Below, in pieces: positions 1 to 49,235 of a DNA stretch of 64,000 nucleotides. Made by a program: the position numbers and the translations under genes. The stretch is from the NCBI GenBank assembly GCA_964030785.1, contig OZ034971.1, positions 39,512,804 through 39,576,803 of the forward strand, given 5' to 3'. This DNA is from Siderastrea siderea (lineage: Eukaryota > Cnidaria > Anthozoa > Scleractinia > Rhizangiidae). The notes beneath the pieces were generated by a model. It was not told the origin of the DNA, made no database searches, and saw only the letters and a program-made list of their open reading frames with translations. The stretch's first letter is position 1. Every line of letters begins with the position of its first letter.

Positions 1-3000
1 ATCTGAATTCCTCATCAGTGGCCTCATGCTTTGGTTGGGGGGGTGGATACTTCCTTATATTAACTAGATACTCACACTATTTGCGGCCCCACTCTAACCT
101 GAAGTAGGGTACATTATGCATAGGCTCCTGTATAGATTTTGGCCATTTTGGTCTGAAATAGGGTGTGGTTTGTGATTCTGGTCTGGAACTGGGTGTTTTT
201 AGAAGTTACGTTTTATTATCATCTTCTCTTGAGAAGTGTGTTTGATTATCATCAGAACTTTGAAGCCCTTCTCAAATATCTACGCAAACTGAAGCAGTTC
301 CGAAATAGTCCGACCTTGAATTTTGGGTCAGGTCTGAAATAGGGTAGGGAAAGTAACATATTTTAATCTAAAATATGGTAAGCTAGGGTTTCAAGGAGTG
401 TGTCCCACACTCCCACCCAAATTTTAGGGAAGTACCTCTCCCCGGGCCCAAAACCGACGGGTCCCGCATCCCGTGTCTGATAGAATGCTCATCCCTACTC
501 GCTTGGCTTAGTGTGAATCCCAGAGCAGGGGGGTTGGGACACTTGACTAATGTTTGGCTATAGGGGTGCCACCGAAGATTTGAAACCCTGACCCTGTTCA
601 GGACAAAAAATGCCCTACAATACCTACCCTGTGAAGGACAACACCCTGCATTTCAGTTTAGGTCCCTAGGGCAAATGACAACACTCCCTTGTTTCACACA
701 ATTCTAAAGTGTTTCAAATACCAGCAAACATCCCTCATCTAGGATTGCTAAATACTGTATCAGCCATATTTAACGACGGCAATCATACTGACCATACCCT
801 GTTTAGGACAGGTTCCCACTCTGTTTAGGACAGACTCACATAAAAAAAATTATATTCCCTGGTTCCATGAAGGACAAAGAGGCTAAAACTATACCCTGTC
901 CAGCAGCACCTCCCTGTAGAGGCCATATTAGAGAGTATCCCCATCCCCCGGGGGTGTGAGTTGACTGAGGTCGTGATATTTGCTGGATTTAACCCCACTT
1001 TGGCCTAGTGTGAGTTGACTTTGCTGTATTCCTTTTACAAAAGAGAGCAAATCCTGCTCTAGCCAGGGTGCAAACAGATCTTCTTTCACAACATCCAGCA
1101 ACTGTCAGGCATCTTTAAACTCCATCTAGCACCCCACCCTCATAACTGTGATTCGAATTATATCAATTTCTTAAATAAATTTTTCAAAGACATCATACCA
1201 TTTAATGCAGAGTTTTTGCCCTTGAATTAAAACAACCATTTTTGTTGTCTAAAATATTTCATTATAATTTTTGTCCATTCAGAAAGACAAGGAAAATCAA
1301 GGAGACAAAATAAGGGGGAATTTTTAAGTTAAATGAAATACACTGTGACACGCAGTGAATGTAATCTAAAGCATTCCATTTTATTGGTCTATAACAAGAT
1401 TATACACAAAAAACTCGTGTACGTTCACAGTTAGCCTGATGAAAAACACACAAAAAGGTTTGGGAGAATTAGAAAGCTCAAGTGAACCAATAAAATGGAA
1501 AAAGCAGTATACTCTGATATTCTCCATCCCAAACTGTCTATTGTGTCTTAACTTTAGAGTACCAATTGAAAAATAAGAACGCAAATTAAAGTAGGGATAT
1601 GATAAGCCATAAAAGTTTTACCTAATGGCTAAATGTAAACATAAGTTAACAACAGTGTGTTTGTGACAAGTTCAATTGTTTGTATGTGAACCTTAAAAGG
1701 ACATATTCTCCCAGAACCTCTCACTGGGAGTTAATTAATCAGGTCCCAGAGGTTGTAAACACAGATTCGTGAAGAACAAAATCTAACAAGTTCTTAACAA
1801 TGTTTAACATACACTGCAATGTTTACACCTGACTCACTCACGCAGTGTAATCTCAAACTTATACTAACAAAGAAGGAGAACAATAAATTTATTGTCTGTA
1901 ATAACAGTTTTTTGCACAGATTGGTGCATTAATGTACAATTGCAGTGTTTGAGAGAACTTGAATGATTCTGTGACCTTTCACATTTATTCTCCCTTAACT
2001 CTCTCCACTGTATAAACTGACAATGGACTAAGAAACTAAGAATTAAGACAATTTAACATGACATAATATACTGCAACAGTTTAAGGAGGCTTGAAAGGGT
2101 CTTTAGTTCTGTGCACATAGCCTACACATGACATGGCAAGAATGCACATGTCAACCAAGTGAATCAAAATTTCTAGTAAAAGTCCCACCTGAAAGTACTG
2201 GAAGTGAAAATATGGCATAAAGTCTTACAAACCACAAATATAACATGCACGAAACATTTGTTTTTATTAACAAATTTTGCTCGGCGACCCAGCCTGACTT
2301 TTCGCATGCATGTAGCCTTAAGTGTGCCAATTCAAATAGAAATGTTTGGAGGACAGTTTTTCAGTGGAACTTTTTGTAATTCAAGAAAACAACTTTTTCA
2401 ATATAATTTAAGTTCTACTGAATAAATTTTTGTCAAATCACCAGAGAAGTTAAAGAATTTAGGGTGCTTTCTAAAAATACAAGAAAAAGGGTAGGTCACC
2501 AACTTAGTTTTTCAGATAATTGGCAAAAACTGAAATTTGGAGGTTCTTTTTGTGGGCCTTGGTGTTGCCATGGTAATGGCTATGACGTCACAATCCGCCT
2601 TAAAATATTGCCCGTCAAAAGAGGTGTCAGGAGATGCATGGTTTGCCTACATTGTCAGAAATACTTTTTTGTACCCGTTCCGCGTTTCAAAAGGATTAAA
2701 ACAATAATTAAAAACCCTTTTGAGCCACCTTAAAACATATGCCCGATACAAATATGACAATGAATTTGCAAGAAATTCAGTGTTTGCGTAAACCAAAGCC
2801 AATACATCACACTTATTATAAAAAACATAAATTACGGTAAGCAAGAAATAAATAACCGTATTTACTAGGCTAATGTATAAACACAGGAGAGGGACTCTCA
2901 TTTAAAAGTGACAGAGATACTTGTTGGAGAATGAATACTAAGGAAAAAACAAGAAAGAAAGAAACCCCTCAATGCACCAGAACCATGTTTTGAGCATATG

Positions 3001-4068
3001 ATACCAGTTTGTTTTTACTCAGCAAGTAATAAAACAAAACATTAACTGAAAATTGTCTAACTTTTTACATTGGCAATCAAATCAACTCAATTATGTAATT
3101 TTAGATGGCACTGTTTTAGTATTTACACACAAGGTAAAATACCACAACACACTGTAATTAGGTCTGACTCAGTAAATGTAGAAACTAAACAACCTTATAG
3201 TGGTACCAAAATCGTATTTTAAATCCTGAACGTACAATGTGCAATCACTACGGTCACTTTAAATAAGAGACTGCAGTGACCTCCCTGACTGCTAATCTAG
3301 GATGCCAGTTATACAGGGTGTGTTTAGCTTAATCACTCCTGTCACTTTCAAACAAATAGTTCCCCACACCCCTCCTTCCAAAAAAACATATTATTAAACA
3401 ATTATTCTACAAGGAACTACTTCATTGGATAATTAGTGAAAAATAAACAACTCCTATCAAACAGGTGCAATTATTATTGTTTTATTAAATTGTTGTTGAT
3501 TTTTTGTCTTTAAATTTTTTGGACAAATGTTTGTTTTACGGATAAGCTTTTGAATGCTGTGGCACCTGACATAGCATTCATTGAGGCAAAAAGCAAGGTT
3601 ATTCACAGAATGATAAAGTGTGTGCAGCGTTCCAATGATAGACTGCTTTCAACCCTTTCAGGATAGTCGAGAGCGAGACTGTAGCGAGGAGGAAAGACAA
3701 CAAGAGACTGAACCCCCCTCGGCTCTTGGATCCAGGTTTTACTTTCTTTGCTTTTTTTTTTCTCACTTTCAGCTATCCAGAAAGGGACTACTAGTAGTTT
3801 AATCAAATGAGAAAACTAGATTCAGAGTTTTTAAACAACACATAATTTAAAAACTTGTGACTTACGGTAAATAAGCTAAGACAGCAATCTATTATTTATA
3901 AAAAAGACTGGTGTTTAAACTTCAGTAATACTATAAACTGCCTAAAATATAAGTAATGTTCACGCAAAAGTGAATTAAATGTTTGTCATGGTCTCAATGA
4001 GTTCTTTTGGCCAAAAAGCCACAGTTCACATGCATCTACATGTAATAATTCTCTTACTACAGCTATAC

Positions 4069-4443
4069 CCCGGGGGGGGGGGGGACTCCCATATGAAAAT
4101 GACGGGGATGCTCCTCGGAAAATTAGAATTATACCCCTAAAGGAGACCAATCTGGGCATGGTTCAGGTGTTATTTGACCCCTAAACGAGACCATGCTAAA
4201 ACAGACAACCAAATAAGAGCTTCAGTGATTTAAATGCGCTAAAGATTGACGCTAAAGATTGACGTCGTTTGGTTTTTCATATAGATATTTCCTTACGCAC
4301 ACCCTAAGCGATACCTGAATGGGTAAAAATATTGGCTTTCCTTCCTAAAAACCCTAAGCAAGACCAAAATCTGCAAATTACAACCCTATAAGCGAGACGA
4401 CGAGCATCCCCGTCACTTTGATATGGGAGTCCCTCCCCCCGGG
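4069..4443. mobile_element. Short non-autonomous DNA transposon (MITE), 8 bp target duplication
   Basis: The ends are inverted copies: CCCGGGGGG followed by a G run, then GACTCCCATAT and GACGGGGATGCTC, on the left; the same words reverse-complemented on the right. Both sides are flanked by AGCTATAC (4061-4068 and 4444-4451). The aligned place in duplication copy 2 (about 32738) has a single AGCTATAC and no insert, so this is a real insertion after the duplication, or a clean loss in the other copy. An 8 bp duplication is usual for hAT elements, but the terminus is not a typical hAT end, so the superfamily is uncertain. No coding capacity. Confidence 0.8.
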
Positions 4444-6010
4444 AGCTATACAAACTATATAAAGTGTCAGTAACTTAAGTGATACTGTATTGCCAACTAA
4501 TTACACTGTAATTGTGAAGGAAAATGAGTGATAATATTCTTTTCTGAATCATTGTTAACAAGAAGTCGAAATAGACTGGTAACAGCCAGGCCACTTTCAA
4601 TCCCCTATGATGTGCTCCCCTTCCCCATGGCCAGTCAGCCCCCAAGGAAAAAACATAGATTATCCACATTATGTTGGACAGGCCACATAACTAGTTTTTC
4701 CTTAACAGCATATTTTAGGAGGAATTGTTGACACCCCTCGCTGATCTTACAAAAATATTAGAGCATGACAAAGTTTAATGTTATGTATGAATCCAAACAT
4801 TTTTTAGCCTGGATGTCAAAAACAGACTGTAAAAGTCAATCTACATAATGTGCATATCCAGTATTTCGAATATTTCAAATCCATTCTCCAAAATCACATG
4901 ACAGACCGAATGAACTCTTCAAAATGACAATTAAAGAAGAACTTGACAATTCCTGCAAGATTTTGAATTCCCACAGAAATTTATAGAAATTGAATCAGGC
5001 TAGTATTTCAAATCGATTGTAAATTTATTTTTTATTTTAAGTTTGCCACAACCAGTTGAAACCATAGTTTGTATGTTGATGTCAAAGCAGCATAAAAGAA
5101 GACAGTACAAAAATGACTTCTTAATTTACAATGCCTAAGTCAGTGACCTGAAAGCGGAGATTTCTCACGCAATTCTGTCTAGGCAGGATAAAGAGAAATA
5201 GGAGAAATTAATTTTAAAAAACGACATATACAAGCTTTAGAGCTAAATAGTACGGTATTACACCTTTATATAGATAATAAGCACGAGAAAAAATTATCTA
5301 TCATAGAAATCTACCATGGCAAACAATTTACATTAATAAACAACACAAAATTGGCTGCTCTGACAAGGGTCTAATTTGTTTTGGCTCCTGCATGCTTTCT
5401 CACTTGAACACAAAAGCAGTTCAGGACGAAACTTTTCTTTTTGAAAAACACAGGGAGCATTTTGATTTTTAACACTCTGTGGGCAGTGAAGCATAAGAAA
5501 GAACAACAAACCTGAAAGTGGAGAAGCTGAAAGTTTTAATTGACTTCATTTGAAAAGTAAATGTGTATCATGTTTTTAACCTCTCCAAAATAGACAATTG
5601 CCAGTAAAAGTACAATTCAAAATGACAAATAAACTGAGCACTAGCTGAGGAAATCTTTTACAAATTCATTTAAAGCTTGATATCAAATTATTTTTACCCA
5701 AACAATAAACAGTCGGTCAGAAGTCTGTAAGGTTATATTAAGGCTAGTTCATTATAACAACACTTGCAAAAAACATGACAGAAGATTTTTAAAGGGTGCA
5801 CTTAATTTGTTCGGTCTTTTATAATATGAGTTTTAGACACAAAACTGCAAATACTTAAACTTCTGTGTTTTTTTTTGTTTTTGTTTTATAGTGTATTCCA
5901 ACAGCAATGATTGTGATATGCAACTGCTGTAAAAATACATTTATTTTACTGTGATGTTATTTAACTTATTGTCTTCTTGTTCTTGCGCTATAAAAAACAC
6001 ATGATGAGTT

Positions 6011-7753
6011 TTAAATAACAATTACCTTGCGATTGTCATGCTCATCTTCAACAGCTACAGTAATGTGACCCTCCATGGTCACTGTAATCCCGTAAAGCCA
6101 CTGAATCCTTTCTTCATCGAGTGCAACGGTTCGCACAAACTCGCCATCTTTAGTGTATATATCCACTCGCGGGCGGTATGTTCCTCGTTCTGCACAAGCG
6201 ATGACGACATGTTCACCTGCAGGGTGGGAAGCCACGCGATAGAAATCTCCTTTGGTGTTAATGTTGAACTTGTTCAGCTGTGTTCCATCCTCGGTGAATA
6301 CGTGAACACAGTAATCACCTCCGTCAAGCACCATCACACTGCCGTCAGGGACCGTGGTAATGTCCCATGCTTCCTTCAATATTCCTTCTCCAAAGCTACA
6401 GACATATCCTCCGTCATGGTTGAACACATCAACAACATGTTTGCCCTCATCAGTCCACCCCAATACCAGCACTTTGTTGCTGCTAACTGTCAGTCTGCCC
6501 AAGCCCCCTCTCCTCACAGGAAACTTGTTCAGCCGGTCACCACTGTTCTGGTACACATGCATTTCCAGCTCCCATCTCTCAGTCCCAGGCTTCTTCAGGT
6601 CGACCAGTACATAGATGTTACTGGTGTTCCTGTTAGTGGCGACATCAAGAATATTTAACAGTGTATCGGCGTCATCAGTTTGAGGTTTAAAACTGTGAAG
6701 AAACTTTCCGCTGCTACTAAACACCTTGACTGTTTCATCCCCATTGTCTGCTATGATAAACTGTCCGTCGGTGTTTGTAGCGATACCGCGCGGACGTATC
6801 AGCTTGTGCTCCTCTTCACCCTCCTGACCAAATGACCATGGTGTAACACAGCAGTGTTCCATGTCAACTTTCTGCAATACTTTTTTCACTCTGCTGTCAC
6901 GCAGAGGGTCAATTTTGTCTTCCCCAGTATCAACAGAAGGCCAGAGCCAGACATGCACGTCTTTATTGGCTATTTGCGCAGCATCATAGATGGCGCGATT
7001 TACCTGACAGACGGTGGAAATTATTTCCCTCCGTTCGTCTTTGCCAAAGCGGCCCTTGATATTGAGGACGCTTTTTTCAAGCCCGATTCTAAAGTTCCTC
7101 TGAACGTCTGGCAGAGAGTGGAGTTTCACAAGGCATTGTTCGCACTCTGGTAATGCATTTTCCATTGCAGTCTTCACAGACAAAGACGACAAGTCGCCCG
7201 CGGTAAGCACAGTGCCTACTGCCGACTCTAATATTGTCCCCATGGCACGATATCGAATAGCTGTGATGCGGTCAAACGTACTTAGAGCTTCATTGTTGAA
7301 GGCTCTTGTTGCTTCTTCACGAGCCATTTTGAATCTCTCTTTTGCTTCAGAAAGCGACTTCTTAGTTGTTTCACTGAACTCAGTCAGTTCCATGTTTGTC
7401 ATTTCTGCGGCGAGGGCAATTGTTTTCACAGTAGCTGTTGTTGAAGGTGAGCTAGGCTTTTCAAGATTCTCTTTTCTTTTTCTGGCACCAATGGTTGCTG
7501 CCGCAGCTTCTGCGTCGATTGCCTGATAAAGGTATTTGAGACCAACTTCATAGGCATCAATCGCTGACAGAAGGTCCTTTCTCGCTAATCCATCCAACTT
7601 TGACTTGATATCGTCGATTTCACGTACGATCAAATCTCGGATTTTTTGGTCAGTCACATCGCCTTCTTTCAGTTTTTCGGCGGCTTTATCTCTGCCTTTA
7701 TTCACGAGCAAGCCAATAGTGGCTTTAAACGTGGCTGTGATAATCGAAGTCAT
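6011..7753 (-). CDS. NHL-repeat protein with long N-terminal helical domain
   Basis: Single open exon of 580 codons if translation starts at the methionine at 7753. That start is preferred because the paralogue at 49235 begins at the matching residue (MTSIIT against MSSIVT) and similarity stops just before it; the frame itself runs open to 7825. Residues 1 to about 270 are mostly helical and charged, beginning with an amphipathic stretch (TSIITATFKATIGLLVNK). Residues about 320-580 form NHL-type beta-propeller blades, recognisable from repeats such as PRGIATNTDGQFIIADNG, DVFNHDGGYVCSFGEG and CVHVFTEDGTQLNKFNIN. NHL propellers usually bind proteins or RNA; no RING, B-box or protease domain is visible. 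The last residues, RKVIVI, look like a closing propeller strand, though AAG|GTAATT just before the stop could also act as a splice donor. I infer a cytoplasmic scaffold or sensor, without proof. Confidence 0.85.
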   Translation of the reverse strand: MTSIITATFKATIGLLVNKGRDKAAEKLKEGDVTDQKIRDLIVREIDDIKSKLDGLARKDLLSAIDAYEVGLKYLYQAIDAEAAAATIGARKRKENLEKPSSPSTTATVKTIALAAEMTNMELTEFSETTKKSLSEAKERFKMAREEATRAFNNEALSTFDRITAIRYRAMGTILESAVGTVLTAGDLSSLSVKTAMENALPECEQCLVKLHSLPDVQRNFRIGLEKSVLNIKGRFGKDERREIISTVCQVNRAIYDAAQIANKDVHVWLWPSVDTGEDKIDPLRDSRVKKVLQKVDMEHCCVTPWSFGQEGEEEHKLIRPRGIATNTDGQFIIADNGDETVKVFSSSGKFLHSFKPQTDDADTLLNILDVATNRNTSNIYVLVDLKKPGTERWELEMHVYQNSGDRLNKFPVRRGGLGRLTVSSNKVLVLGWTDEGKHVVDVFNHDGGYVCSFGEGILKEAWDITTVPDGSVMVLDGGDYCVHVFTEDGTQLNKFNINTKGDFYRVASHPAGEHVVIACAERGTYRPRVDIYTKDGEFVRTVALDEERIQWLYGITVTMEGHITVAVEDEHDNRKVIVI

Positions 7754-12535: not shown

Positions 12536-12675
12536 GGTTAGACAATGAACGCGAGTGTTCTACGGGATATAGTGTCCCGAGCAAAGATAGAATGCCACGA
12601 GGCCGCAGGCCGAGTGGCATTCTATCTTGCGAGGGACGCTATATCCCATAGGACACGAGCGTTCATTGTCTAACC
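12536..12675. repeat. 140 bp near-perfect hairpin (foldback repeat)
   Basis: Arms begin GGTTAGACAATGAACG and end with its complement CGTTCATTGTCTAACC. The middle pairs GATAGAATGCCACGAGG with its inverse around a GGCCGCAGGCC centre. It sits where unit A and unit B stop matching, and unit B has a different hairpin there. It probably represents a MITE or the end of a larger inverted structure. Confidence 0.75.
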
Positions 12676-19245: not shown

Positions 19246-19555
19246 CCATCTGAATTCCTTATCAGTGGCCTCATGCTTTGATATAAAAAAGGCTAATCGC
19301 CAATTCGGCATCAAATCAAAGACCCCTAAAACCGGTTGGGGGGGGGGGTGGATACTTCCTTATATTAACCACACTATTTGCGACCCCACTTTATCCTGAA
19401 GTAGTGTATATTATGCATAGGCTCCTGTATAGATTTTGACCATTTGGTCTGAAATAGGATGTGGTTTGTGACTGGTCTGGAACTGGGTGGTTTTAGAAGT
19501 TACGTTTTATTATCATCTTCTCTTGAGAAGTGTGTTTTGATTATCATCAGAACTT
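19246..19555. repeat. Segmental duplication, copy 2, first piece
   Basis: Matches positions 1-260. It has about 49 bp extra near 19280-19335 and ends at the 9 bp target duplication TCAGAACTT (19547-19555) of the large transposon. The duplication resumes at 28963. Confidence 0.85.
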
Positions 19556-19639
19556 TAGCCTGCAGAGCAGGCGTTTTTTACGAAATCAACGCTTGTTTAA
19601 CGATCGTTTGCTTAGGCCGCCATTTTGAAAGCAAGTAGA

Positions 19640-19710
19640 AAATGGACTAGGGGAGGAGGGGAGGGGAAGGCGGGGGAGGGGAGGGGAAGAGAAAGGGAAA
19701 AACGCCTGCC
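19640..19710 (+). repeat. Left subterminal G-rich tract and inner repeat
   Basis: Runs of three to five G separated by one or two bases (about 19649-19686), followed by GGGAAAAACGCCTGC. The other end of the element has the same order on the opposite strand. Such tracts can in principle form G-quadruplexes. Confidence 0.7.
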
Positions 19711-19911
19711 GGCGAAGGTTATGAAATCACCGAACGCCCCCTAATTAGTTGCGCTTGATCGCTTTTCCGGAAATGCATAAACAGCCAATGAAAATCGAGA
19801 TCTTTTTTACCGGAAGACGAAATTTTACTTCCGACAAAAACATTGACACGTGCATTTGACAAGTCTTGAAAAATCTAGCCTGCAAATAGCCGGCGATGCG
19901 CGAGCAAAGTT

Positions 19912-22900
19912 ATGTCGGAAACACGTCCTTGTGACAGCTGCCGGATTTGTAGATGTTCTTTTAAAGTGAAGTTTGGAAGCCTCACTGGTAAACAATTTTA
20001 CTCCTCATCACAAAATCTGTTTAAACCGTCGCAGCGGAAAGATTCCTTTGGAACTGTGCTTGCAGACGTTTGTCGTCGAGTGGGATTGGTTTTGTTGCAG
20101 GATCCAGGAGTTTACTCGGATCGTGTATGCAACCCCTGTGGTCGCAAAATTCTCAGTCTTGGTAATTTGTTCGAGATTGTCAAAGTCGCAACTTCTCCGA
20201 CAGTAAGTGGTACATCGATAAAAAGTACCAAACGTGCACTTGCAACTCCGGATAAAGCGAGTCCTTCATGGAGAACAACGAAGCTTGTGCGGGTTAATTC
20301 GCCACAAGCGAAGACGCCATCGCAGGTGAGATCAGCTAAGAAATCGCGAAAGTCTCTCGCATTTACCGGAGAAAGTAGTTGTACGTCAACTCCGTCGGAA
20401 AAGGAAGATGACATGTTGAGAAGACTGAACGTGGATGACTTGCCGCAGACAGGACTTCAGGTTAAAGTCGTGTACGTGAACCCTTCAGGAAATGTTACTG
20501 TGAGAATCCCGCGAGACGAGCAAACCAAAACATTGGTGAAAAACCTCGCATGCGAAAACTGGCGTGAAGTGTCCAATGCCATCCTGAAGCACGGAGAACT
20601 TGCTCCTGAATTAAACAATAGCATCCGCAAAGTTTTATCCAAGGAATTTAGCGATTATCTGAAGTCGGAAACAATGCTTTGCGCCAGAAACCCAGATGAA
20701 TTGGCCGGTTTCTCTAACAAATTGTTTATGGAGGAGGTAAGAATTTACTGCCCTTTGTGGTTTCATTGTGTGCTCGGAGCAAGTGGTCTCTCGACTCAGG
20801 AAGAAGTGAAGGTTGTTGGAAGAGACCTGAATTCACTCGCTTTTGCCACTGCAACACTGGCCCGTGTTCGAAATCATCAAGCATCAGCACTCCATTACAG
20901 GATTTCAACCATATTATTTCACAGTGGTGTCAAACATGATGACCTCAATCGCCTTAATCGTTTGGGGGTGTGCATGTCTCCAGATTCCATTGTTCGGCTT
21001 CAAAGCAAAATGAATGAGCAATTGGAAGGCAAAGTGAAGATATGGAAGGCTTCGATTGAAGAGAATCGTGGTGCTCTCAAGTTAGCCCAGGAGGTGGTCC
21101 AGAAACAAGTTGCCTTGCCACAACTGGATGTCAGTCAACAGTGCCTCGAAACTTACAATTTTTTCTCGACAAAAGGACAGGAGTATTTAAAAAAGCTCTT
21201 GGATGAGGAGAAAGCGAAAGAAAGTCTTGAATCATACACTCTAGATTGTATGCAAACTGTCATCAGAAGATTGGAGAGTACCAAACTTCCCTTGTACAAG
21301 TAAGCGTTTTTATGCCATGGCAGCTGATTAAATTTCACTGTCAATAATTTTTTTTAGGCAGTCTATAAGATGCATGTTTTTTGAATTCAACAGATCCTGA
21401 AAGTTGTTTATTGCTTTTTGGCCACGTTTCCCCTAGTTTCTTTATTTCACTAATATTATGACAAATTTTTAAGACTATGAGAGCACCCTGGAGCACTATA
21501 TAATATCACAGAAAATTTTAACCTGTAAGTTAAGAATTCAGCCATTCAGTAGAGAGATCCACTCTTATTTGGCTTGTTAAGTGCTGTACTAATGCAATAT
21601 TTTTACAAATTATTAAAATAATAATTATTAAACACTGTAGAATGTTTAACTTTCTTTTAAAAAAGGTTGGTGGGAGACAACATTGATTATGAAATTCATG
21701 CCAGAGTTCAGTCCCAAAAGCATCGCAACCGCTCCATTCACTGGACACACCAGTTTGCTGTACTAGATCGAGTTCAAGATCCTCTACTGGACAGCTATCG
21801 CAGCCAGAAGGCAGTCAGTGAGATCCAGTTTGCAGAACTCTTGCCAGATAAAGATGTTATGGAAAACCTTGTCAAGAATTGGGCTGTTATTGTCAGCCGG
21901 GTGGTAACAAAGTATCTCCCGCCTTTTCAATCATTTAGAGATGTGGTTGTGAGACACATACCACATGAGTACTCAAAGGAGATGTCTCAGAAATCCAACT
22001 CAGTGAGTAGAAACTCTTAAATGTTAAATTGTTACCCTACTCTTAACATACCCTATTTAGACTTAAAAGTTATGCAATCAATGATTTTAATAGTTTAAAA
22101 ACTGCATCCGTGATTGATTGCATATCTATTTTTGAAGAGGTTTTGGTTGGACTGTCTTGTAATCTACTCTAAATACATTTCCATTATCTAGTGCTTTCTT
22201 AGTATGCAGTTCCTGAATCCCAATGTTTCTGGAGAGATGGCTCAACTCCTTCAGCACAACCAAGAAAAGTATGTGCCTTGTTTGACCGAGGGAACCAACA
22301 AGACCATTCTTGAACAGATACCTCTCCATGGTGACCAGCTTTTTGAAGAACGTGCGAGAAATGTCATCTGGACGTACAGGGATGGGGTGAATGAATATGA
22401 GAGGCTTCAAGGCATTGACACAGAGTTCGCAGACTGGCATGCTAAATACACTCTATACAAGGTAATGAGAGCTTGGTTACTCTGTAACTGAGGCATTATA
22501 CACAACTCTTAATTGAAACTTTCCTTGGGTTTTTTTTTTTGGGGGGGGGCAGGGGGCTGAAAATAAATAACTGCATTTGGGCCAAGATAGTTCAAGAGAT
22601 TCATAGCTTGATTCATAGCACCTTCACCAGGAGCAAAAGTCGGAGGAGTACCTCTGCAGTCCCCCCACTCACCTCAAAAAATATATATATATTTCTCCTA
22701 TCTTTACATTTGCTCTTAAAACAGACAGAGTTCAAGATGTTTGTAAATCACTCTTCTGCTGCTGAAGTGGGCACTTCCAGAGCAAGCATCAATAGGACCG
22801 GCAAAACCAATGCAGCAAAGGGTGTGGAAAACCACTACAACGAGTATAGCGAGTTCCACGCTAGGGAGACAGAGGCCCACATATGCGCTTCATTTATGGG

Positions 22901-25238
22901 AATGACAGGAATGGATAAAATCAGTGGTAAGAACACATGTAATTTAGCAATCAATAGCTCATAACAACCCAGTTACAAATGAGAAATTGTACAATTTTGA
23001 CCTGAGGGAACCATTTTTCTACCAATATATAAAGGAAATTTGATTTCTTGGGAGTGAGGAGAGGACATAGGTTGATTAAAAGTTGCAAGGGATATATTAT
23101 TTAACATATTGTAGACAACTGTCATTTTGACAAGAAAGAAAAATTAAACATTCAATGAAAACATACACACTATACACATGGATATCATTTCATGTACCAT
23201 AACATTATTTTCTTGAATTATGGCCCACCCTGTATATTTGCTCTCCCCCTCCACCCAAATGATCACTTCCATTTTGGGGCAACTCTTCAGAATCAGTACC
23301 CTTAAAACAGTAAACAGTAATAACAATCTTCATTTGCACTCCTAAGATTAAGTGGGGTTAGAGTACCGACTGCCTGGATTATAACCTTATGGGCTAGCAG
23401 AGCCACTGGTAGTCAATATCTTACCAGGGTATAAATAAATAAATAAATAAATGAATAAATAAATAAATAAAAAAATAAAAAAACAGTCTTCAAACTATAA
23501 GGTAATAACAGGAAACTCAAAATGGTTACTTGATTTCCTTGCATAGATAAGCCAGAGATAGCCATGCCCGATGAAACTGTCTCCAAGCAGACAAGAGCCA
23601 TGTGGTTGTTGGAAGTTTGTGAAGAACATGTGAAGAAATTTGTGTTCAACAAAGATGGCTTGACGTCATTGGTCGCTCAGACCACAGAGCTCGAAGCAGT
23701 CAATCAACAGTCGAGGTGGACATGTCGTGCAGATGACTGTGTTATGAGTTATGCATATCACTCTGGACGAGTAAGGTAAATTCAATTTTATAGAAAGTGT
23801 TTTCCACTGGCAGTCAATCTATGTAGAATTTCTGTTGAAGAAATGTGCTCTCTGTCTGGACGTATCAAAACAAACTAAATAATCAGCATTAACATCTGAG
23901 AACTTTGATTTTGATATCATAGGCATGAAGTTGAGGTACACAACTTATCATTTGATGGTGGCCATGACGTCAGAGATCCTTATGGTTACTACTATTGTAG
24001 GATGCGTTGTGGACTGGTGTTCAAGACCAAGGCTACAAGAAACAGGTGTGGTTCTTTCCATCGTTATCACTCCCCCGAAAAATTGTTTATCTACCTGGGC
24101 CTCACTACCGACATAAGGTATGTCCAAGATGTAAAATCAACCCCCCCCCCCACACACACACACACACACCAAGCCCAATGTCATTTGTGAATTTTTAGTT
24201 GCTTGTTCTGATGGCCTCCATAACAATCAAACATCACAAAGTGACAATTAAAGTGCACAATAGACAGAATGACTTTCACAAACTTATGTCACTGGTGTTC
24301 GTTGTAACAGGACATATTCTATTTGGCAATGCAACGTAGAAATACGTGTATTTATCAATCCCCTCCCCCTTCCCTTAATTTAACCCTCCTCCTAATACAC
24401 CCCTTCATGCTATTTTAGGCCTAAAATGAACAATCGTTCCCCAGGGAAGGGGGGACTAAATAGAGGAAATACAAAAACTGATACCACCCATGACTTTTTA
24501 TTTTGTCAAAACAGACATGAAGAACAAAAACATGGAGAAACCCTTCCTGAAGACAGCATCACACAAGAGGAAAGTCAAGAAGACTACAAGTTTAATTATC
24601 ATAGTGCCAAGCTAACATTTGGATTAGTATTGCTTGAATTTAATGATGCTGTTAAAGAAGGGGACGGGGGTAGGCTATTTGACTTGTACAAACTAGCTTT
24701 ACTCCTGTACAAGACTCATGGACACTACAAGTATGCATATGCTGTCCTTTTGTATTTGGTCAAGTGCACTGCAATCCTTCCACCGTCGCAGGCACTTAGG
24801 TTAAAGTGGAACAGGACTTTTAATGGGAGTGGTCTTCCTGGTCGAAACATTCCACTTGACCTACAGAAAGAACATGACAATAAAGCTATCAAGTGTATGT
24901 GGCGCAACTTAGGTGCAAACCTTGATGAACACAATGCTGAAAGAACAGCAGGAACTTTGGAATCAAGGCAACTTGTTTACCAGTCTGTTGACCGAGACTG
25001 TGACCTGAAGGAACAACATTTCTCCAGGGGCAACCCCAAAGAGGAAGAGGCTGTTGTCCAAATAATCAGTGACCTTCAGAGCAGCAAGGTGTTTACTAAG
25101 ACACCAGGCCGTGAGGGGTACGCTTCATTCCCAAAGTTCAAAAGGGACCTTCTACATGGCCTTGACTACAGAGACTTGCATAAATGGCTAAGAGAGCATA
25201 TTGACCTCTGGGGATCAATTTATCAACAACAACGATAG
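19912..25238 (+). CDS. DUF6589-type protein, candidate transposase of the 9.4 kb element
   Basis: Seven exons join in phase: 19912-21299, 21666-22002, 22192-22461, 22725-22926, 23547-23775, 23923-24117, 24515-25238, giving 1114 residues. Every junction has GT and AG. The N-terminus holds a four-cysteine module (CDSCRICRC, then CRRVG and CNPCGRK), resembling a ZAD or similar zinc-binding fold, followed by a basic Ser/Thr-rich linker (about 95-165). The middle (VGDNIDYEIHARV, SIHWTHQFAVLDRV) and the C-terminal third (LLYKTHGHYKYAYAVLLYL, RNIPLDLQKEHDNKAIK) fit what I know as DUF6589, common in cnidarian genomes. A second Cys/His cluster lies in exon 6 (YYYCRMRCG, RNRCGSFHRYH). As the only candidate for DNA cleavage in the element it is inferred to be the transposase; I cannot name a DDE triad with confidence. 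The reading frame is intact. Confidence 0.8.
23434..23483. repeat. AAAT-type microsatellite in intron
   Basis: About a dozen tandem ATAA units with one variant, inside intron 4 of the DUF6589-type gene. A short CA run lies at about 24152-24170 in intron 6. Confidence 0.85.
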
Positions 25239-26192
25239 CCTGCATGTAATAGCCACATGAATGTATGACTGGAAGAAATTATGTAGGCATACTTAAATAT
25301 TATAACATGCATGTAAGCACTTTTCTATGAATGCTATTAAGAAAAAATTAGAATGACCATAGATTAAAGGTATCTACTTTTTTTCCCAAGAGCATACCAA
25401 GCAAACAAATGTGGAAAAAGATCAGGCAAAGAAGACTTGTATCATCTCAAGTCATTCCTGATAGGTAAATAAAACAATGGCCACTGTTTCTCTTCAACTG
25501 AGAACAGGGAGTGTACCCTGACATAAAGAACTTTCTTAGAAAATATTGCGATCCATTTAACTGCAGAGTGAAAATTTCTAGTTATTTCTTGCAAGCAGTC
25601 AAATTTCTTGGTTTGAGTCAGTAATAAAATTATAAGGATTGTAATGCTAGGCTATTTTACATCATATGTGTAGATAGATCCTTATGTCACATGGTGTGGT
25701 GGACATACAAGTAAGCACTCTTCTGTGGCAAAGTCATTGAATAGACTAAAAAAACGTGAGACATATTATGTGTAAATAAATGTTTAAATTTTAATATTTT
25801 AAAGTATTTGATATTTACAAAGTATGAACATGTATTAGCAGTAGAGTTGGAGGGGTGAGTCACTTTCATCTTGTTTTTGGCTTGTTTTACACATATACAA
25901 GTTTTTTCCTGTCTGATCTGGCCTCTGCTATGATAATTAATGCTTGCTTAGGTGTCACTTTGAAAATATAAACTGCTCCTATCAAAAGCTGCCTTTGCCA
26001 TTACCATTTCCAAAGTTCCTCATTAACAGATAAAGCATTTGGAAGCCAAAAATTTACCAACATGCAACTGCTGGCTTGATGGTCATGGGAAAAAATAATT
26101 ATCTCAAAATGTGACAAAAAATGGCTGTAAAAATCAGAAATGGTGATGTAAGAAATACATTTAATTGTAATTTCAACAGGAAGTGAAACTCT
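25239..26192. other. Gap between the two converging transposon genes
   Basis: AT-rich, presumably both 3' UTRs. Open frames are short and unsupported. The segment around 25393-25450 could encode a short Lys-rich peptide but has no start or clear splice context. Confidence 0.5.
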
Positions 26193-28605
26193 TTAAAGTT
26201 CTAACAGTTCATGATCACTGTCACTATCAATACCCAACTCAAGGCAATTAAAATCAAACCACTTACTAACACTTGACTCCCTTTGCAAATTAGAGTGGAA
26301 GTTGTACAGAGCTAATGTTTCCTCAAAGTTTGGTATGTCCATGAACACTTCTTGAACAACTTCCAACACTCTCAGAGCATTTGTTAAGGAAAAGACAGGA
26401 AAATTGTTCAGCAGGCCTTCGACAGTAAAAATTTGTTGGCAATTTTTGACAATATCCTCTATCAGCTCTTTTGAAAAGCCATGACTCGAACTTTGATTCA
26501 GCGATAGCCCTTCATGACTCATGTCGGCCAGAACCTCATGTAGTGCTTCCTTCAGTGTGTCGCGATCATCCTCTGTTACATTCCTCTTCGTAGCATTAGT
26601 ACCTGTAGCACTTTCATCATCTCGTTGCGTGGTAGCCTCAAATGGCAAAACAGCTGCATTGCAAGCTGTACCAGCACACTTGCAGATCTTTGTGCAATGA
26701 GTGCAACAGTCATGCAAAGGTTCCACAGGTTTAATTGTTGCATCCAAAGAATTGTATGCCGCAACACGAAGACAGCCTTTAGCATTTACAAAGTCTTTTA
26801 CCTCTTGCTCACAATGTCCAGCTTGTTGTCCATGATACAGAACAATAATGTGGGATTTCTCTCCATCCCTCCCGGCCCTTCCAGCCTCCTGGTGTTGGTC
26901 AAGAATAGACCTTGCTGGTCCCCAGTTAATTACAAATCTGACATCAGGGAAGTTCACCCCCATACATAGGGCAGTTGTTGCTATAAGGACACGTTTCAAT
27001 CCTTCAGCTGTCTTAAACTCCTTTAACACTCTATCCTTACTGCTCTGCCATGAATTTGAATGAAATATTCCAATTAAGCAATTATCTTGCTTTGCTGAAC
27101 AATCAGGCAAGAAAACATCCTTTCCTAGTTCACAAATTAAATAGTTCACAACAAGTGCGATCTCATTCATAGTATTACAAAACACTATTGTCTTTGGACA
27201 ATTGCTCTTTTGCTCTCGTATTAAATCCACCAGCCATTTAAGCTCCTTCAGCTGCACATCTTTCTTGACCTTTTTAACGCAAAACCTCAAGTTCAATCGG
27301 TTTGGACTCACATATATTTTGGTGACATCCGACCGCAAGCAGAGCACTTTCTTGATAGTTTCCTGTGTTGTAGCATCAGCAGTACCAGTTAGAGCCCCAA
27401 CAGGTGTGCCTTGGGGTTAAAACAGAAATTATTTAGTTCCTTGTTGAAACAGTATCATATGTTCTCATTAAATGGCAGTTCATCACTCTGACAACCTGAG
27501 CTACCAAATCCATACTGGTTGCATACAAGTCAGTTCTGAGTATGTTTGATACTTCTGTAAAAATGTGCCAATCAAATCGAAACTACATATCCCTGATTTT
27601 GACAGTCACCACAAAAAAACATTTATTGAAACATATAATTTGAACGTTAAAGATACATGTTGAAATGGGAATCAAGACATCTCAGCATCGCACTTTTGAG
27701 AGAATTCAAGAACAACACTCAAATAATCCAAAATTTTGCAATAAAATATTGTGAGCTGGAGAACCTGCACTAAGACAACAGAAAAAGCTCGCTATATATT
27801 AAGCATGTTCCGGCTGGTAATAATTTAAAGAAGACATTAATGATATGGTAAGCTTAAATGTATTCTTTGCTAAATATGTGACGAAGAAAAATACTCAAAT
27901 TCGTTACCTTGTTTGCAAAAAGATCGTAGTTCTCCTAGCTTTGCAAACGATTCACGGAAAGCAACGGTGCCGGTTTGTTTGGTTTTCTTTGTTGTTGACC
28001 TGTTGAATACAAATAATAATCCAAACTTGTGTTAGACTCCTCGTGTTTGTAGCAAAAATCGTAGATGTTATGGGATCTGGTTCTTAAAAGATTATGAAAA
28101 AAGAGAAGAAAAACAAACCTTTGACCCGTCCATGTTTCCACAGTGTGAGATTCGTCAACGATTAGGGCAGCAAGGTTCTGGTGCAAAGGTGTGCTGCTCT
28201 TTTTGAGCCGATCGAGAAACGGCTTTTCCAAAATTTCCTCTGCAGACGCAAAGATGAGTTGGTACTTGCCGTTCTCTACGTCTTCTAAACTGGCGTCCGA
28301 AAGCGATGTACAGTTAAACCCATCGAGGATGCTTCGGATAACTGATCTTGCACAATACTTTTCAGCGGGCAAACAACGATCACGCATGCAGGTTTACTCG
28401 ACAAAATTTCCTTGACTCGAACCAACAGCTGAAAGATAAGGCTTTTTCCAAAGCCTGTTGGTAGAATTGCCAATAAATCTCGACTCGACAATAGCGTCAT
28501 AACAGCTTGCTTCTGTTCTGATCGCAATTCAAGCGATAATCCCAGTCCAGATAGAGATGAAAGAGCTTCTTCGAGGGCAAGATCGTGACTTCGCAAATCC
28601 GCCAT
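26193..28605 (-). CDS. RecQ-like DEAH/DExH DNA helicase with one apparent frameshift
   Basis: Three exons: 28605-28119, 27999-27908, 27409-26193. Exon 1 has the start MADLRSHDLA, motif I LAILPTGFGKSLIF, motif Ia VVCPLKSIVQDQ and motif II LIVDESHTVETW. Exon 3 opens with motif III ALTGTADATTQET, then ATTALCMGVNFPDVRFVINW and motif VI HQEAGRAGRDG, and a Cys-rich zinc module (CCTHCTKICKCAGTAC). This order is that of RecQ helicases, which unwind DNA 3' to 5'. The C-terminal 150 residues are acidic and unrecognised; no RQC or HRDC domain is seen. Exon 1 needs one extra base between about 28305 and 28320: the frame ending SSMGLT must pass to the one reading TSLSDASLEDVENGKYQ. This is either a one-base deletion that breaks the gene or a sequence error. 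The gene lies inside the transposon and converges on the DUF6589-type gene. Confidence 0.85.
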
Positions 28606-28962
28606 ATTTCCTCCTTTCAATGAATCAGAGTGAATTCTTCCCGCGGAGGACCGGGAGAAATATGTGCTTTTGATTGGCAGGTAGCAATCAATATGCAACC
28701 AACCGCACCAATCAGAGCCCCCGTCCATTCAGTGAACGGGTTCGGCAAACGAACAACGGCTGCGTGCAGGCGTATTTTTCCCCTCCCCTCCCCCTCCCCC
28801 TCCTCAATTTTAAACCCATCGTCCTCTCCCTTGCAATAATTTTTTGCCTCGCCCCAACCCTCTGTCAGTTTCATTATTCAAGATGGCGGCATATCGGATT
28901 ATTCATCGCTCGCCCAGGATATTCATCGCTCGCCCAGCAAAATACGCCTGCTCTGCAGGCTA
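28606..28962. promoter_or_regulatory. Right end of the transposon, likely including the helicase promoter
   Basis: Contains the inner repeat (about 28766-28777), a C-rich tract at 28780-28804 (G-rich on the minus strand), the shared GCCGCCATCTTGAA word at about 28880-28893 (as its complement), a 19 bp tandem repeat (TATTCATCGCTCGCCCAG type, about 28902-28938) and the terminal repeat. The helicase start is about 360 bp from the end. No core promoter motif is clear. Confidence 0.5.
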
Positions 28963-31900
28963 TCAGAACTTTGAAGCCCTTCTCAAATATCCAGGCAAAC
29001 CGAAGCAGTTCCGAAATAGGGACGTCGAAATTTGGGTCAGGTCTGAAATAGGGTAGGGAAAGTAACATATTTTAATCTAAAATAATTATGGTAAGCTAGG
29101 GTTTCAAGGAGTGTGTCCCACACTCCCACCCAAATTTTAGGGGAGTACCTCTCCCCGGGCCCAAAACCGACGGGTCCCGCATCCCGTGTCTGATAGAATG
29201 CTCATCCCTACTCGTTTGGCTTAGTGTGAATCCCAGAGCGGAGGGTGGGGGGGGGGGGGGGGGGGTGACACTTGACTAATGTTTGGCTATAGGGATGCCA
29301 CTGAGGGTTTGAAACCCTGACCATGTTCAGGACAAAAAATGCCCTACAATACCTACCCTGTGAAGGACAACACCCTGCATTTCAGTTTGGGTCCCTAGGG
29401 CAAACGACAACACTCCCTTGTTTTACACAATTCTAAAGTGTTTCAAGTACCAGCAAACGTCCTCATCTAGGATTGCCAAATACTGTATCAGCCATATTTA
29501 ATGACGGCAATCATACTGACCATACCCTGTTTAGGACAGGTTCCCACTCTGTTTAGGACAGACTCACATAAAAAAAATTATATTTCCTGGTTCCATGAAG
29601 GACAAAGAGGCTAAAACTATACCCTGTCCAGCAGCACCTCCCTGTATAGGCCATATTAGAGAGTATCCCCACCCCCTGGGGGTGTGAGTTGACTGAGGTC
29701 GTGATATTTGCTGGATTTAACCCCACTTTGGCCTAGTGTGAGTTGACTGGGAAATTTGCTGGTACAGATTTCAATACTTTGCTGTATTCCTTTTACAAAA
29801 GAAAGCAAATCCCGCTCTAGCCAGGGTGCAAACAGATCTTTTTTCACAATATCCAGCAACTGCCAGGCGTCTTTAAACTCCATTTAGCACCCCACCCTAA
29901 TAACTGTGATTCAAATTATATCAATTTCTTAAATAAATTTTTCAAAGACATTTGCCCTTGAATTAAAACAACCATTTTTGTTGTCTAAAATATTTCATTG
30001 TAATTTTTGTCCATTCAGAAAGACAAGGAAAATCAAGGAGACACAACAAGGGGGAATTTTTAAGTTAAATGAAATACACTGTGACACGCAGTGAATGTAA
30101 TCTAAAGCATTCCATTTTATTGGTCTAATAACAAGATTATACACAAAACACTCGTGTATGTTCACAATTAGCCTGATGAAAAACACACAAAAAGGTTTGG
30201 GAGAATCAGAAAGCTCAGGTGAACCAATAAAATGGAAAAAGCAGTATACTCTGATATTCTCCATCCCAAACTGTCTATTGTGTCTTAACTTTAGACTACC
30301 AATTGAAAAATAAGAACGCAAATTAAGGTAGGGATATGATAAGCCATAAAAGCCTTAAAAGGACACATTCTCTCAGAACCTCTCACTGGGAGTTTTAATC
30401 AGGTCCCAGAGGTTGTAAACACAGATTCGTGAAGAACAAAATCTAACAAGTTCTTAACAATGTTTAACTGATACACTGCAATGTTTACACCTGACTCACT
30501 CACTCAGTGTAATCTCAAACTAATATACTAACAAAGAAGGAGAACAATAAATTTATTGTCTGTAATAACAGTTTTTTGCACAGATTGGTGCATTAATGTA
30601 CAATTGCAGTGAGTTTGAGAGAACTTGAATGATTCTGTGACCTTTCACATTTATTCTCCCTTAACTCCCTCCACTGTATAAATTGACAATGCACTAAGAA
30701 ACTAAAAATTAAGACAATTTAACATGACATAATATTACTGCAACAGTTTAAGGAGGCTTGAAAGGGTCTTTAGTGCTGTGCACATAGCCCACACATGACA
30801 TGGCAAGAATGCACACGTCAACCAAGTGAATCGAAATTTCTAGTAAAAGTCCCGCCTGCAAAGTACTGGAAGTGAAAATATGGCGTAAAGTCTTACAAAC
30901 CAGAAATAAAACATGCACGAAACATTTGTTTTTATTAACAAATTTTGCTCGGCGACCCAGCCTGACTTTTCGCATGCATGTAGCCTTAAGTGTGCCAATT
31001 CAAATAGAAACGTTTGGAGGATAGTTATTCAGTGGAACTTTTTGTAATTCAAGAAAACAACTTTTTCAATATAATTTAAGTTCCACTGAATAAATTTTTG
31101 TCAAATCACCAGAGAAGTTAAAGAATTTAGGGCGCTTTCTAAAAATACAATAAAAAGGGTAGGTCACCAACTTAGTTTTTCAGATAATTGGCAAAAACTG
31201 AAATTTGCAGGTTCTTTTTGTGGGCCTTCGTGTGGCCATGGTAATGGCTATCACGTCACAATCAGCCTTAAAATATTGCCCGTCAAAAGAGGTGTTAGGA
31301 GATGCATGGTTTGCCTACATTGTCAGAAATACTTTTTTGTACCCGTTCCTCGTTTCAAAAGGATTAAAACAATAATTAAAACCCTTTTGAGCCACCTTAA
31401 AACACATGCCCGATACAAATATGACAATGAATTTGCAAGAAATTCAGTGTTTGCGTAAACCAAAGCCAATACATCACACTTGTTAGAAAAAACATAAATT
31501 ACGGTAAGCAAGAAATAATAACTGTATTTACTAGGCTAATGTATAAACACAGGAGAGGGACTCTCATTTAAAAGTGACAGAGATACTTGTTGGAGAATGA
31601 ATACTAAGGAAAAAACAAGAAAGAAAGAAACCCCTCAATGCACCAGAACCACGTTTTGAGCATATGATACCAGTTTGTTTTTACCCAGCAAATAATAATA
31701 CAAAACATTAACTGACAGTTGTCTAACTTTTTACATTGGCAATCAAATCAACTGAATTATGTAATTTTAGATGGCACTGTTTTAGTACTTACACACAAGG
31801 TAAAATACCACAACACACTGTAATTCTAAGGTCTGACACAGTAAACGTTGAAACTAAACAACCTTATAGTGGTACCAAAATTGTAGTTTAAATCCTGAAC

Positions 31901-33080
31901 GTACAATGTGCAATCACTACGGTTACTTTAAATAATAGACCACCCCCCTCCCCCCCAATTGCTAATCTAGGATGTCAGTTATACAGGGTGTGTTTAGCTT
32001 AATCACTCCTGTCACTTTTAAACAAATAGTTCCCCACACCCCTCCTTCCAAAAAAAGATATTATTAAACAATTATTCTACAAGGAACTACTTCATTGGAT
32101 AATTAGTGAAAAATAAACAACTCCTATCAAACAGGTGCAATACAAATAATTATTGTTTTATTAAATTGTTGTTGATTTTTTGTCTTTAAATTTTTTGGAC
32201 AAATGTTTGTTTTACAGATAAGCTTTTGAATGCTGTGGCACCTGACATAGCATTTATTGAGGCAAAAAGCAAGGTTATTCACAGAATGATAAAGTGTGTG
32301 CAGCGTTCCAATGATAGACTGCTTTCAACCCTTTCAGGGTAGTCGAGAGCGAGACTGTAGCGAGGAGAAAAGACAACAAGAGACTGTTTCCCCCTCGGCT
32401 CTTGGATCCAGGTTTTACTTTCTTCGCTTTGTTTTTTCTCGCTTTCAGCTATCCAGAAAGGGACTGCTAGTAGTTTAATCAAATGAGAAAACTAGATTCA
32501 GAGTTGTTAAACAACATATAATTTAAAAACTTGTGACTTACGCTAAATAAGCTAAGACAGTAATCTATTATTTATAAAAAAGACCGGTGTTTAAACTTCA
32601 GTAATACTATAAACTGCCTAAAATATAAGTAATGTTCATGCAAAACTGAATTAAATGTTTAATGTCATGGTCTCAATGAGTTCTTTTCGCCAAAAAGCCA
32701 CAGTTCACATGCATCTAATAATTCTCTTACTACAGCTATACAAGTGATACTGTATTGCCAACTAATTACACTGTAATTGAAAAGGAAAATAAGTGATGAT
32801 ATTCTTTTCTGAATCATTGTTAACAAGAAGTCGAAATAGACTGGTAACAGCCAGGCCACTTTCAATCCCCTATGATGCTCCCCTTCCCCATGGCCAGTCA
32901 GCCCCCAAGGAAAAAACATAGATTATCCACATTATGTTGGACAGGTCACATAACTAGTTTTTCCTAAATAACAGCATATTTTAGAAGGAATTGTTGACAC
33001 CCCTCACTGATCTTACAAAAATATTACTGAGAGCATGACAAAGTTTAATGTTATGTATGAATCCAAACATTTTTAGCCTT

Positions 33081-33268
33081 TTGTCAAAAACAGACTGTAA
33101 AAGTCAATCTACGTAATGTGTATATCCAGTATTTCGAATACTTCAAATCCATTCTCCAAAATCACATGAGAGACTTGTCAAAAACAGACTGTAAAAGTCA
33201 ATCTACGTAATGTGTATATCCAGTATTTCGAATACTTCAAATCCATTCTCCAAAATCACATGAGAGAC
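33081..33268. repeat. 94 bp tandem duplication, two units
   Basis: The units 33081-33174 and 33175-33268 both start TTGTCAAAAACAGACTGTAA and appear identical. Copy 1 has one unit (about 4815-4910). It arose after the segmental duplication. Confidence 0.85.
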
Positions 33269-34012
33269 CGAGTGAACTCTTCAAAATGACAAAGAAGAAC
33301 TTGACAATTCCTGCAAGATTTTGAATTCCCACAGAAATTTATAGAAATTGAATCAGGCTAGTATTTCAAATCGATTGCAAATTTATTTTTTATTTTAAGT
33401 TTGCCACAACCAGTTGAAAAACACAGGGAGCATTTTGATTTTTAACACTCTGTGGGCAGTGAAGCATAAGAAAGAACAACAAATCTGAAAGTGGAGAAGC
33501 TGAAAGTTTTAATTGACTTCATTTGAAAAGTAAATGTGTATCATGTTTTTCACCTCTCCAAAATAGACAATTGTCAGTTAAAGTACAATTCAAAATGACA
33601 AATAAAGAACACAAGCTGAGGAAATCTTTTACAAATTCATTTAAAGCTTGATATCAAATTATTTTTACCCAAACAATAACAGTCTGTCAGAAGTCTGTAA
33701 GGTTATATTAAGGCTAGTTCATTATAACAACACTTGCAAAAAACATGGCAGACGATTTTTAAAGGGTGCACTTAATTTGTTCGGTCTTTTATAATATGAG
33801 TTTTAGACACAAAACTGCAATATTTAAACTGACAAGGAAAGTACTGTATGAATTTCTGTGATCTTTTTTTGTTTTTGTTTTATAGTGTATTCCAGCAGCA
33901 ATGATTGTGATATGCAACTGCTGTAAAAGTATAAATTACTTTACTGTGATGTTATTTAACTTATTGTCTTCTTGTCTTCTTGTTCTTGCACTATAAAAAC
34001 ACATGATGAGTT

Positions 34013-34647
34013 TTAAATAACAATTACCTTGCCATCGCCATACACATTTTGACCAGCTACAGCCATGTGACCCTCCATGGTCACTGTAATCCCTCCAGAC
34101 CGGACAATCCCTTCTTCATCGAGTGCAATGGCTCGCACAAAGTCGCCATCTTTAGTGTATATATTTACTTGCGGGCGGTCTGTTTCTCGTTCTTTACAAG
34201 CGATGACGACATGTTCACCTGCAGGGTGGCAAGCCATTACATAGAAATATCCTTTGATGTTAATGTTGAACTTGTTCAGCTGTGTTCCATCCTCGGTGAA
34301 TACGTGAACACAGGAATCACCTCTGTCAAGCACCATCACACTGCCGTCAGGGACCGTCGTAATGTCCCTTGCACTCTTCAATATTCCTTCTCCAAAGCTA
34401 CAGACATATCCTCCGTCATGGTTGAACACATCAACAACATATTTGCCCTCATCAGTCTCCGTCAATACCAGCATTTTGTTGCGGCTAACTGTCAGTCTGC
34501 CGCCCCAGACCCCTTTCCTCACATGAAACTTGTTCAGCCGGTCACCACTGTTCTGGTACACATGCACTCCTTGGTCCAATCTCTTAGCCCCAGGCTTCGG
34601 CAGTCTGACCAGTACATAGATGTTACTGCTGTTCAGGTTAGTGGCGA
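34013..34647 (-). pseudogene. 3' half of the second NHL gene, split by the Ginger element
   Basis: Encodes the C-terminal half of the propeller, from the segment LNSSNIYVLVRL to the end GDGKVIVI. It is collinear with residues about 370-580 of the intact gene and has no stop or frameshift within this half. The frame enters the terminal repeat of the Ginger element at 34648. The N-terminal half is at 48130-49235, 13.5 kb away. Because the break is inside coding sequence and the insert carries its own genes, the full-length product is probably lost. The substitutions look mostly conservative, so the gene may have been functional until recently. Confidence 0.8.
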
Positions 34648-48129: not shown

Positions 48130-49235
48130 GCGACATCAAGAATATCTAACTCTGTATCGGCCTCATCAGTTTGAGGTTTAAAACTGTGAAGAAACTTTCC
48201 GCTGCTACTAAACACCTTGACTGTTTTATCCCCATTGTCTGCTATGATAAACTGTCCGTCGGTGTTTGTAGCGATACCCCACGGATTCTTCAGCTTGTGC
48301 TCCTCTTCTCCCTCCTGTCCAAATGGCCATGGTACACAGCAGTGTTCCATGTCAACTTTTCGCAGTACTTTAGTCACTCTCCCGTCACGCAGAGGGTCAA
48401 TTTTGTCTTCCCCAATATCAACAGAAGGCCAGATCAAGACGTTTTTACCGGCTGTTTGCGAAGCATCATAAATGGCGCGATTTACCTGACAGACGGCGGA
48501 AATTATTTCCCTCCGTTCGTCTCTGCCAAAGCGGCCCTTGATATTGAGGACGCTTTTCTCGAGCTCGACTTTAAAGTTCTTCTGAACTTCTGGCAGAGAG
48601 TGGAGTTTCTGAAGGCATTGTTCGCACTCTGGTGATGCAGTTTCCATTGCGCTCTTCACAGACAAAGACGACAAGTCGCCCGCGGTAAGCACAGTGCCTA
48701 CTGCCGACTCTAATATTGTCCCCATGGCACGATATCGAATAGCTGTGATGCGGTCAAACGTGCTTAGAGCTTCATTGTTGAAGGCTCTTGTTGCTTCTTC
48801 ACGAGCCATTTTGAATCTTTCTTTTGCTTCAGAAAGCGACTTCTTAGTTGTTTCACTGAACTCAGTCAGTTCCATGTTTGTCATTTCTGCGGCGAGGGCA
48901 ATTGTTTTCACAGTAGCTGTTGTTGAAGGTGAGCTAGGCTCTTCAAGATTCTCGTTTCTTTTTCTGGCACCAATGGTTGCTGCCGCAGCTTCTGCGTCGA
49001 TTGCCTGATAAAGGTATTTGAGACCGGCTTCATAGGCGTCAATCGCTGACAGAAGGTCCTTTCTCGCTAATCCATCCAACTTTGACTTGATATCGTCGAT
49101 TTCACGTACGATCAAATCTCGGATTTTTTTGTCAGTCACATCGCCTTCTTTCAGTTTTTCGGCGGCTTTATCTCTGCCTTTATTCACGAGCAAGCCAATA
49201 GTGGCTTTAAACGCGGCTGTTACTATCGAGGACAT
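48130..49235 (-). pseudogene. 5' half of the second NHL gene
   Basis: Starts MSSIVTAAFKATIGLL and is collinear with residues 1 to about 370 of the intact gene at 6011-7753, ending at TELDILDVA where the Ginger element begins. The helical domain is open and very similar to copy 1. If transcribed, it would end in the transposon terminal repeat after some 60 foreign residues. Homology with copy 1 stops at the start codon, so the 5' flank differs between the two genes. Confidence 0.8.

Follow-up and report, generated by a model that had tools for sequence, protein, structure and literature searches.

A Siderastrea siderea DNA transposon, probably of the AcademH type, carries a DUF6589 protein that is likely its transposase and a RecQ-like helicase

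We analyzed a stretch of 64,000 nt from Siderastrea siderea contig OZ034971.1, hereafter the window, whose positions serve as coordinates for the element described here. Positions 19556-28962 of the window correspond to a clearly bounded DNA transposon of 9407 bp, the interior of which is filled by two converging genes, one on the plus strand coding for a DUF6589 protein and the other on the minus strand coding for a RecQ-like helicase. The organization of the locus is as follows.

252..260, unstranded: empty paralogous target site within a duplicated stretch (window self-alignment)
19547..19555, unstranded: target site duplication, left copy TCAGAACTT, 9/9 match to the right copy
19556..19579, plus strand: left terminal inverted repeat, 24 nt, 96% complementary to the right end
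19912..21299, plus strand: DUF6589 gene (likely transposase), exon 1, Cys-rich N-terminal part, possibly zf-AD-like
21666..22002, plus strand: DUF6589 gene, exon 2, proposed catalytic D467 (codon 21676-21678, GDN motif)
22210..22461, plus strand: DUF6589 gene, exon 3, proposed catalytic D617 (codon 22333-22335, GDQL motif) and a DWH motif
22725..22926, plus strand: DUF6589 gene, exon 4
23547..23775, plus strand: DUF6589 gene, exon 5, start of the first C2H2 finger as read from the sequence
23923..24045, plus strand: DUF6589 gene, exon 6, second C2H2 finger spanning the splice
24515..25238, plus strand: DUF6589 gene, exon 7 and stop, main Pfam DUF6589 match, proposed catalytic E963 (codon 24870-24872)
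26193..27409, minus strand: helicase gene, exon 3, Helicase_C domain, with stop
27908..27999, minus strand: helicase gene, exon 2
28119..28605, minus strand: helicase gene, exon 1, DEAD domain, lacks one base compared with copy L009
28939..28962, minus strand: right terminal inverted repeat, 24 nt, 96% complementary to the left end
28963..28971, unstranded: target site duplication, right copy TCAGAACTT, 9/9 match to the left copy

Self-alignment of the window pairs positions 31-261 with 19336-19556 and positions 251-1615 with 28962-30352. The paralogous copy is uninterrupted at the position of the element and the 11-base overlap at 251-261 includes 252-260, which indicates that the empty site is real. 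This site derives from a collinear duplicated stretch (251-6642 and 28962-34647) whose pieces are 89-96% identical. The inverted ends, the perfect 9-bp flanking duplication, the empty paralogous site and the two converging spliced genes that an initial annotation of the window had described were all recovered, the DUF6589 gene having seven exons and the helicase gene three. Other repeats in the window include a perfect 94-bp tandem duplication (33081-33174 and 33175-33268), a 1.1-kb direct repeat of 94% identity that is perhaps another mobile element (6639-7753 and 48130-49235), and a segment of about 140 bp matching its own reverse complement at 84% (12536-12675).

The seven exons of the DUF6589 gene encode 1084 codons plus a stop, an uninterrupted frame of 3255 nt in total, in agreement with the intact seven-exon frame proposed initially. 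An alternative end of exon 6 at 24117 was rejected because the donor at 24045 restores the second C2H2 finger and fits the alignment of relatives. In a Pfam scan with E values up to 1, the 1084-aa protein matched DUF6589 only (E 2.8e-29). Two C2H2 fingers lie inside the proposed catalytic region, and a weak likeness of the N-terminus to zf-AD was detected in relatives only (Pfam E of 0.32 on P0002; E of 0.082 against PDB 1pzw with an alignment). Fold alignment with VIA-align using the model of a DUF6589 relative ranked Hermes, the P element and retroviral integrases at the top with moderate Z values, at only 6-7% identity. The protein is predicted to adopt the RNase H-like fold that the initial annotation had suggested looking for, and D467, D617 and E963 are its inferred catalytic triad. 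Foldseek gave no significant match, and no transposase was found among the matches of an alignment of 59 DUF6589 sequences to solved structures with E values up to 10: the best was an RNA-editing protein matching over the finger region (E 7.9e-5), most others were zinc-finger chains, and the remainder were 1pzw (zf-AD, weak) and, above E 0.3, a small number of unrelated chains. Overall, Pfam DUF6589 is likely the transposase of the element. A literature search by DUF6589 and PF20231 retrieved no identification of DUF6589 as a transposase, although one may be in print elsewhere.

To characterize other copies of the element, its left 201 bp were searched against the same 831-Mb genome, which contains at least 41 matches (40 of 112 candidates were scored). 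Leaving aside the window and two near-repeats on C6, we fetched 10 kb of sequence at each of the 20 best places, which brings the number of copies examined to 21 with the window. Both ends are present in 15 of them, flanked by perfect 9-bp duplications in 12 cases, by a 9-bp duplication with one mismatch in one (L027) and by 8-bp duplications in two (L013 and L028). Chance is excluded because the same ends and 9-bp duplications recur elsewhere, the expectation by chance being about 4e-6 per copy. Five of the 21 copies (window, L009, L010, L011 and L012) contain both genes and are 95.6-99.0% identical to one another, which suggests that the family has recently been active. The transposase frame is open in three of these five, namely the window copy, L009 and L010. 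The helicase, which has DEAD and Helicase_C domains, is open to its own stop in L009 (595 codons); in the window copy its frame is broken by a one-base frameshift in exon 1 relative to L009, a defect that the initial annotation does not mention, and in the other two-gene copies the helicase frame is either disrupted or not clearly intact. A further near-identical DUF6589/helicase pair is located on C9.

No right end was found within 10 kb in six copies (L010, L014, L015, L019, L020 and L025). Both genes are nonetheless present in L010. In L015 the transposase gene is damaged and the stretch fetched lacks a helicase match, L019 contains just a 41% helicase-like piece, and L014, L020 and L025 show no match to either gene in the stretches fetched. 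Eleven short copies of 287-1161 bp (L013, L016-L018, L021-L024 and L026-L028) share the ends of the element, and three of them retain gene remnants, of the transposase in L013 and of the helicase in L023 and L028. They fit non-autonomous derivatives and are probably a MITE-like population mobilized by the same transposase. Three equal-scoring left-end matches (G000:C6:7745758, 7811822 and 7877895) are spaced by about 66 kb, which suggests a tandem segmental duplication.

Ka/Ks ratios of the transposase range from 0.12 to 0.19 when the three open-frame copies are compared and from 0.23 to 0.60 when at least one member of the pair is broken, and those of helicase exon 3 range from 0.11 to 0.36 in all ten pairs, these comparisons relying on few differences and on pairs that are not independent. 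Both genes look to be under more constraint (purifying selection) than drifting copies would be, a result that favors, but does not prove, a need for the helicase in the spread of the element.

We also examined the pairing of the two genes across families by searching the genome with DUF6589 exon 7 (best 150 of 322 candidates scored, 25-100% identity) and with helicase exon 3 (best 102 of 519 candidates scored), keeping in mind that matches do not equal elements as some are fragments of one copy. Seventy-two of the 102 scored helicase matches have a scored DUF6589 match no more than 4 kb away, in all 72 cases tail to tail; within 10 kb, the count rises to 77 of 102, of which 74 are tail to tail, when about 0.4% is expected per match. 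Conversely, a scored helicase match is found within 4 kb of 72 of the 150 scored DUF6589 matches, and of only 2 of the 45 below 33% identity. The latter count is a lower bound because three of three DUF6589 loci lacking a scored helicase were seen to carry one on reading (C10, 32% identity; C6, 29%; C2, 37%), and the missing pairings are owed at least partly to the scoring of just the best matches. The divergence of the two genes is strongly correlated over the 72 pairs (Spearman coefficient of 0.95), and the gene pair is co-inherited. At all four divergent loci that were opened, the two genes converge. Three of the four are bounded by inverted ends of 75-165 nt and perfect 9-bp duplications (aacaaagag, attttgctc and aggaaacaa), and the fourth, the C2 locus at 37% identity, has 30-nt inverted ends without a target duplication. 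The initial annotation had proposed to test whether both genes occur side by side between the same ends, and had named different end points among copies, or DUF6589 and helicase genes found mostly apart, as observations that would speak against its proposal. In this genome, neither observation was made: the copies have their end points in common, and a DUF6589 match lies within 4 kb in 72 of the 102 scored helicase cases.

The Pfam DUF6589 profile yields at least 103 matches above the cut-off in this genome (102 of 418 candidates scored) and none in 14 control genomes. The best 150 of 322 DUF6589 candidates reveal a large expansion in which multi-copy groups and open frames are numerous. Many related DUF6589 families may once have been active.

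Folding predictions also place a hairpin in each end of the element.

19558-19572, plus strand: left-end hairpin, 6-bp stem and 3-nt loop
28946-28960, minus strand: right-end hairpin, the same as at the left end

The predicted single-stranded fold of either end reaches −6.6 kcal/mol, a value equalled by 0 and 1 of 200 shuffles. The hairpin is clear in the family of the window element and was seen by eye in the C2 family at 59% identity. It is not universal, as it is weak or absent in the C6 family at 29% identity. These observations suggest that opened ends might fold into hairpins and be recognized in folded form. We deem improbable the more specific scenario in which opening of the ends by the helicase lets the 24-nt repeats fold into single-strand hairpins read by the DUF6589 transposase instead of plain duplex DNA.

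The interpretation that we favor with high confidence is that of an AcademH-type DNA transposon in which DUF6589 is a DDE transposase and requires as a partner the RecQ-like helicase encoded tail to tail with it. The zinc fingers of the transposase would bind the inverted ends, and its RNase H-like core (D467, D617 and E963) would cut and join DNA, presumably by a cut-and-paste route with target cuts staggered by 9 bp. The helicase would most likely unwind either the transposon ends or the strand-transfer joint, or else process a transposition intermediate. The initial annotation had likewise proposed a single mobile system in which the DUF6589 protein cuts and joins and the helicase assists. 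The copies, the co-inheritance of the genes, the selection acting on them and the predicted fold all favor such a system, its helicase step and cut-and-paste mode being conjectural. What this adds is DUF6589 as the likely transposase, a co-inherited gene pair and a hairpin in each end, the kind of transposon itself probably having been named already. A Pfam family of unknown function would thereby become a likely transposase family, and ‘uncharacterised’ animal genes containing it could be re-examined as mobile. Moreover, the near-identical copies, one of which has both frames open, together with a constrained helicase make the need of a transposon for its own helicase directly testable.

It is extremely improbable that host DUF6589 and helicase genes came to lie by chance between unrelated repeats. 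Such proteins are named ‘hypothetical’ or ‘uncharacterized’ in the source, but both genes recur on separate contigs between exactly the same end points and with site-specific 9-bp duplications, and an empty site exists. As for known transposons, terminal inverted repeats are general for elements of this kind, the AcademX nuclease is of the XPG type, Kolobok elements generate TTAA duplications, hAT and P elements generate 8-bp duplications, and Helitrons combine a HUH nuclease with a helicase and have neither inverted ends nor duplications; AcademH reportedly occurs in animals and fungi, going by the title of a 2020 paper by Kojima. The inverted ends and duplications observed here set the element apart from Helitrons. 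It resembles hAT elements (Hermes) and the P element in its predicted fold, where a helical insertion precedes the last acidic residue of the RNase H-like core, but 9-bp duplications in 13 of 15 two-ended copies and a Pfam match to DUF6589 only place it outside these groups, which are not known to have a helicase. A KolobokH-like element is very unlikely given that the duplications, perfect and 9 bp long in 12 of the 15 two-ended copies, are of varied sequence and differ from TTAA, even though a DDD/E transposase, predicted in the case of our element, is combined with a RecQ helicase in both cases. In the accessible text of PMC9587614, such a helicase is encoded by KolobokH, which is reported from fungi only, and by one red-algal Kolobok, Kolobok-1_CCri.

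The initial annotation knew of no named superfamily with this gene pair and considered it perhaps undescribed, which is probably wrong: according to the accessible text of PMC10045372, AcademH generates duplications of 9 or 10 bp and AcademX of 3 or 4 bp, a difference related to the helicase or nuclease that they encode. Academ is counted among the DDD/E superfamilies in the accessible part of PMC9587614, and fungal DEAD and Helicase_C domains are attributed to AcademH, KolobokH or Helitron in that of PMC10799480. AcademX, named in PMC10045372 as the other Academ lineage, is linked in that text to a nuclease and to duplications of 3 or 4 bp; our element has a helicase and duplications of 8 or 9 bp. 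It does not fit AcademX: XPG has no match in the scanned reading frames of the element, none of the 23 XPG matches in the genome lies within 16 kb of the best 150 of 322 DUF6589 matches, and the open frames of the 6-kb XPG locus L041, read by eye, include no DUF6589-like gene. This lack of an XPG-linked DUF6589 relative among the best 150 DUF6589 matches, the presence of RecQ helicases in Kolobok lineages as well (PMC9587614, accessible text), and the fact that the likeness to Academ is one of description would suit a superfamily distinct from Academ in which a DDE transposase and a RecQ-like helicase were combined independently, the 9-bp duplications being coincidental. We regard such a superfamily as unlikely because the element displays both traits that distinguish AcademH in a citing paper, namely an encoded helicase and duplications of 9 or 10 bp. 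Of its 15 two-ended copies, 13 have 9-bp duplications, with one mismatch in one case, and the other two have 8 bp. Terminal inverted repeats are present as well. With AcademH, likened here through its descriptions in citing papers, no tested feature differs, and on the strength of the helicase and the duplication length, compared by description, the element is probably a new family of AcademH-type transposon.
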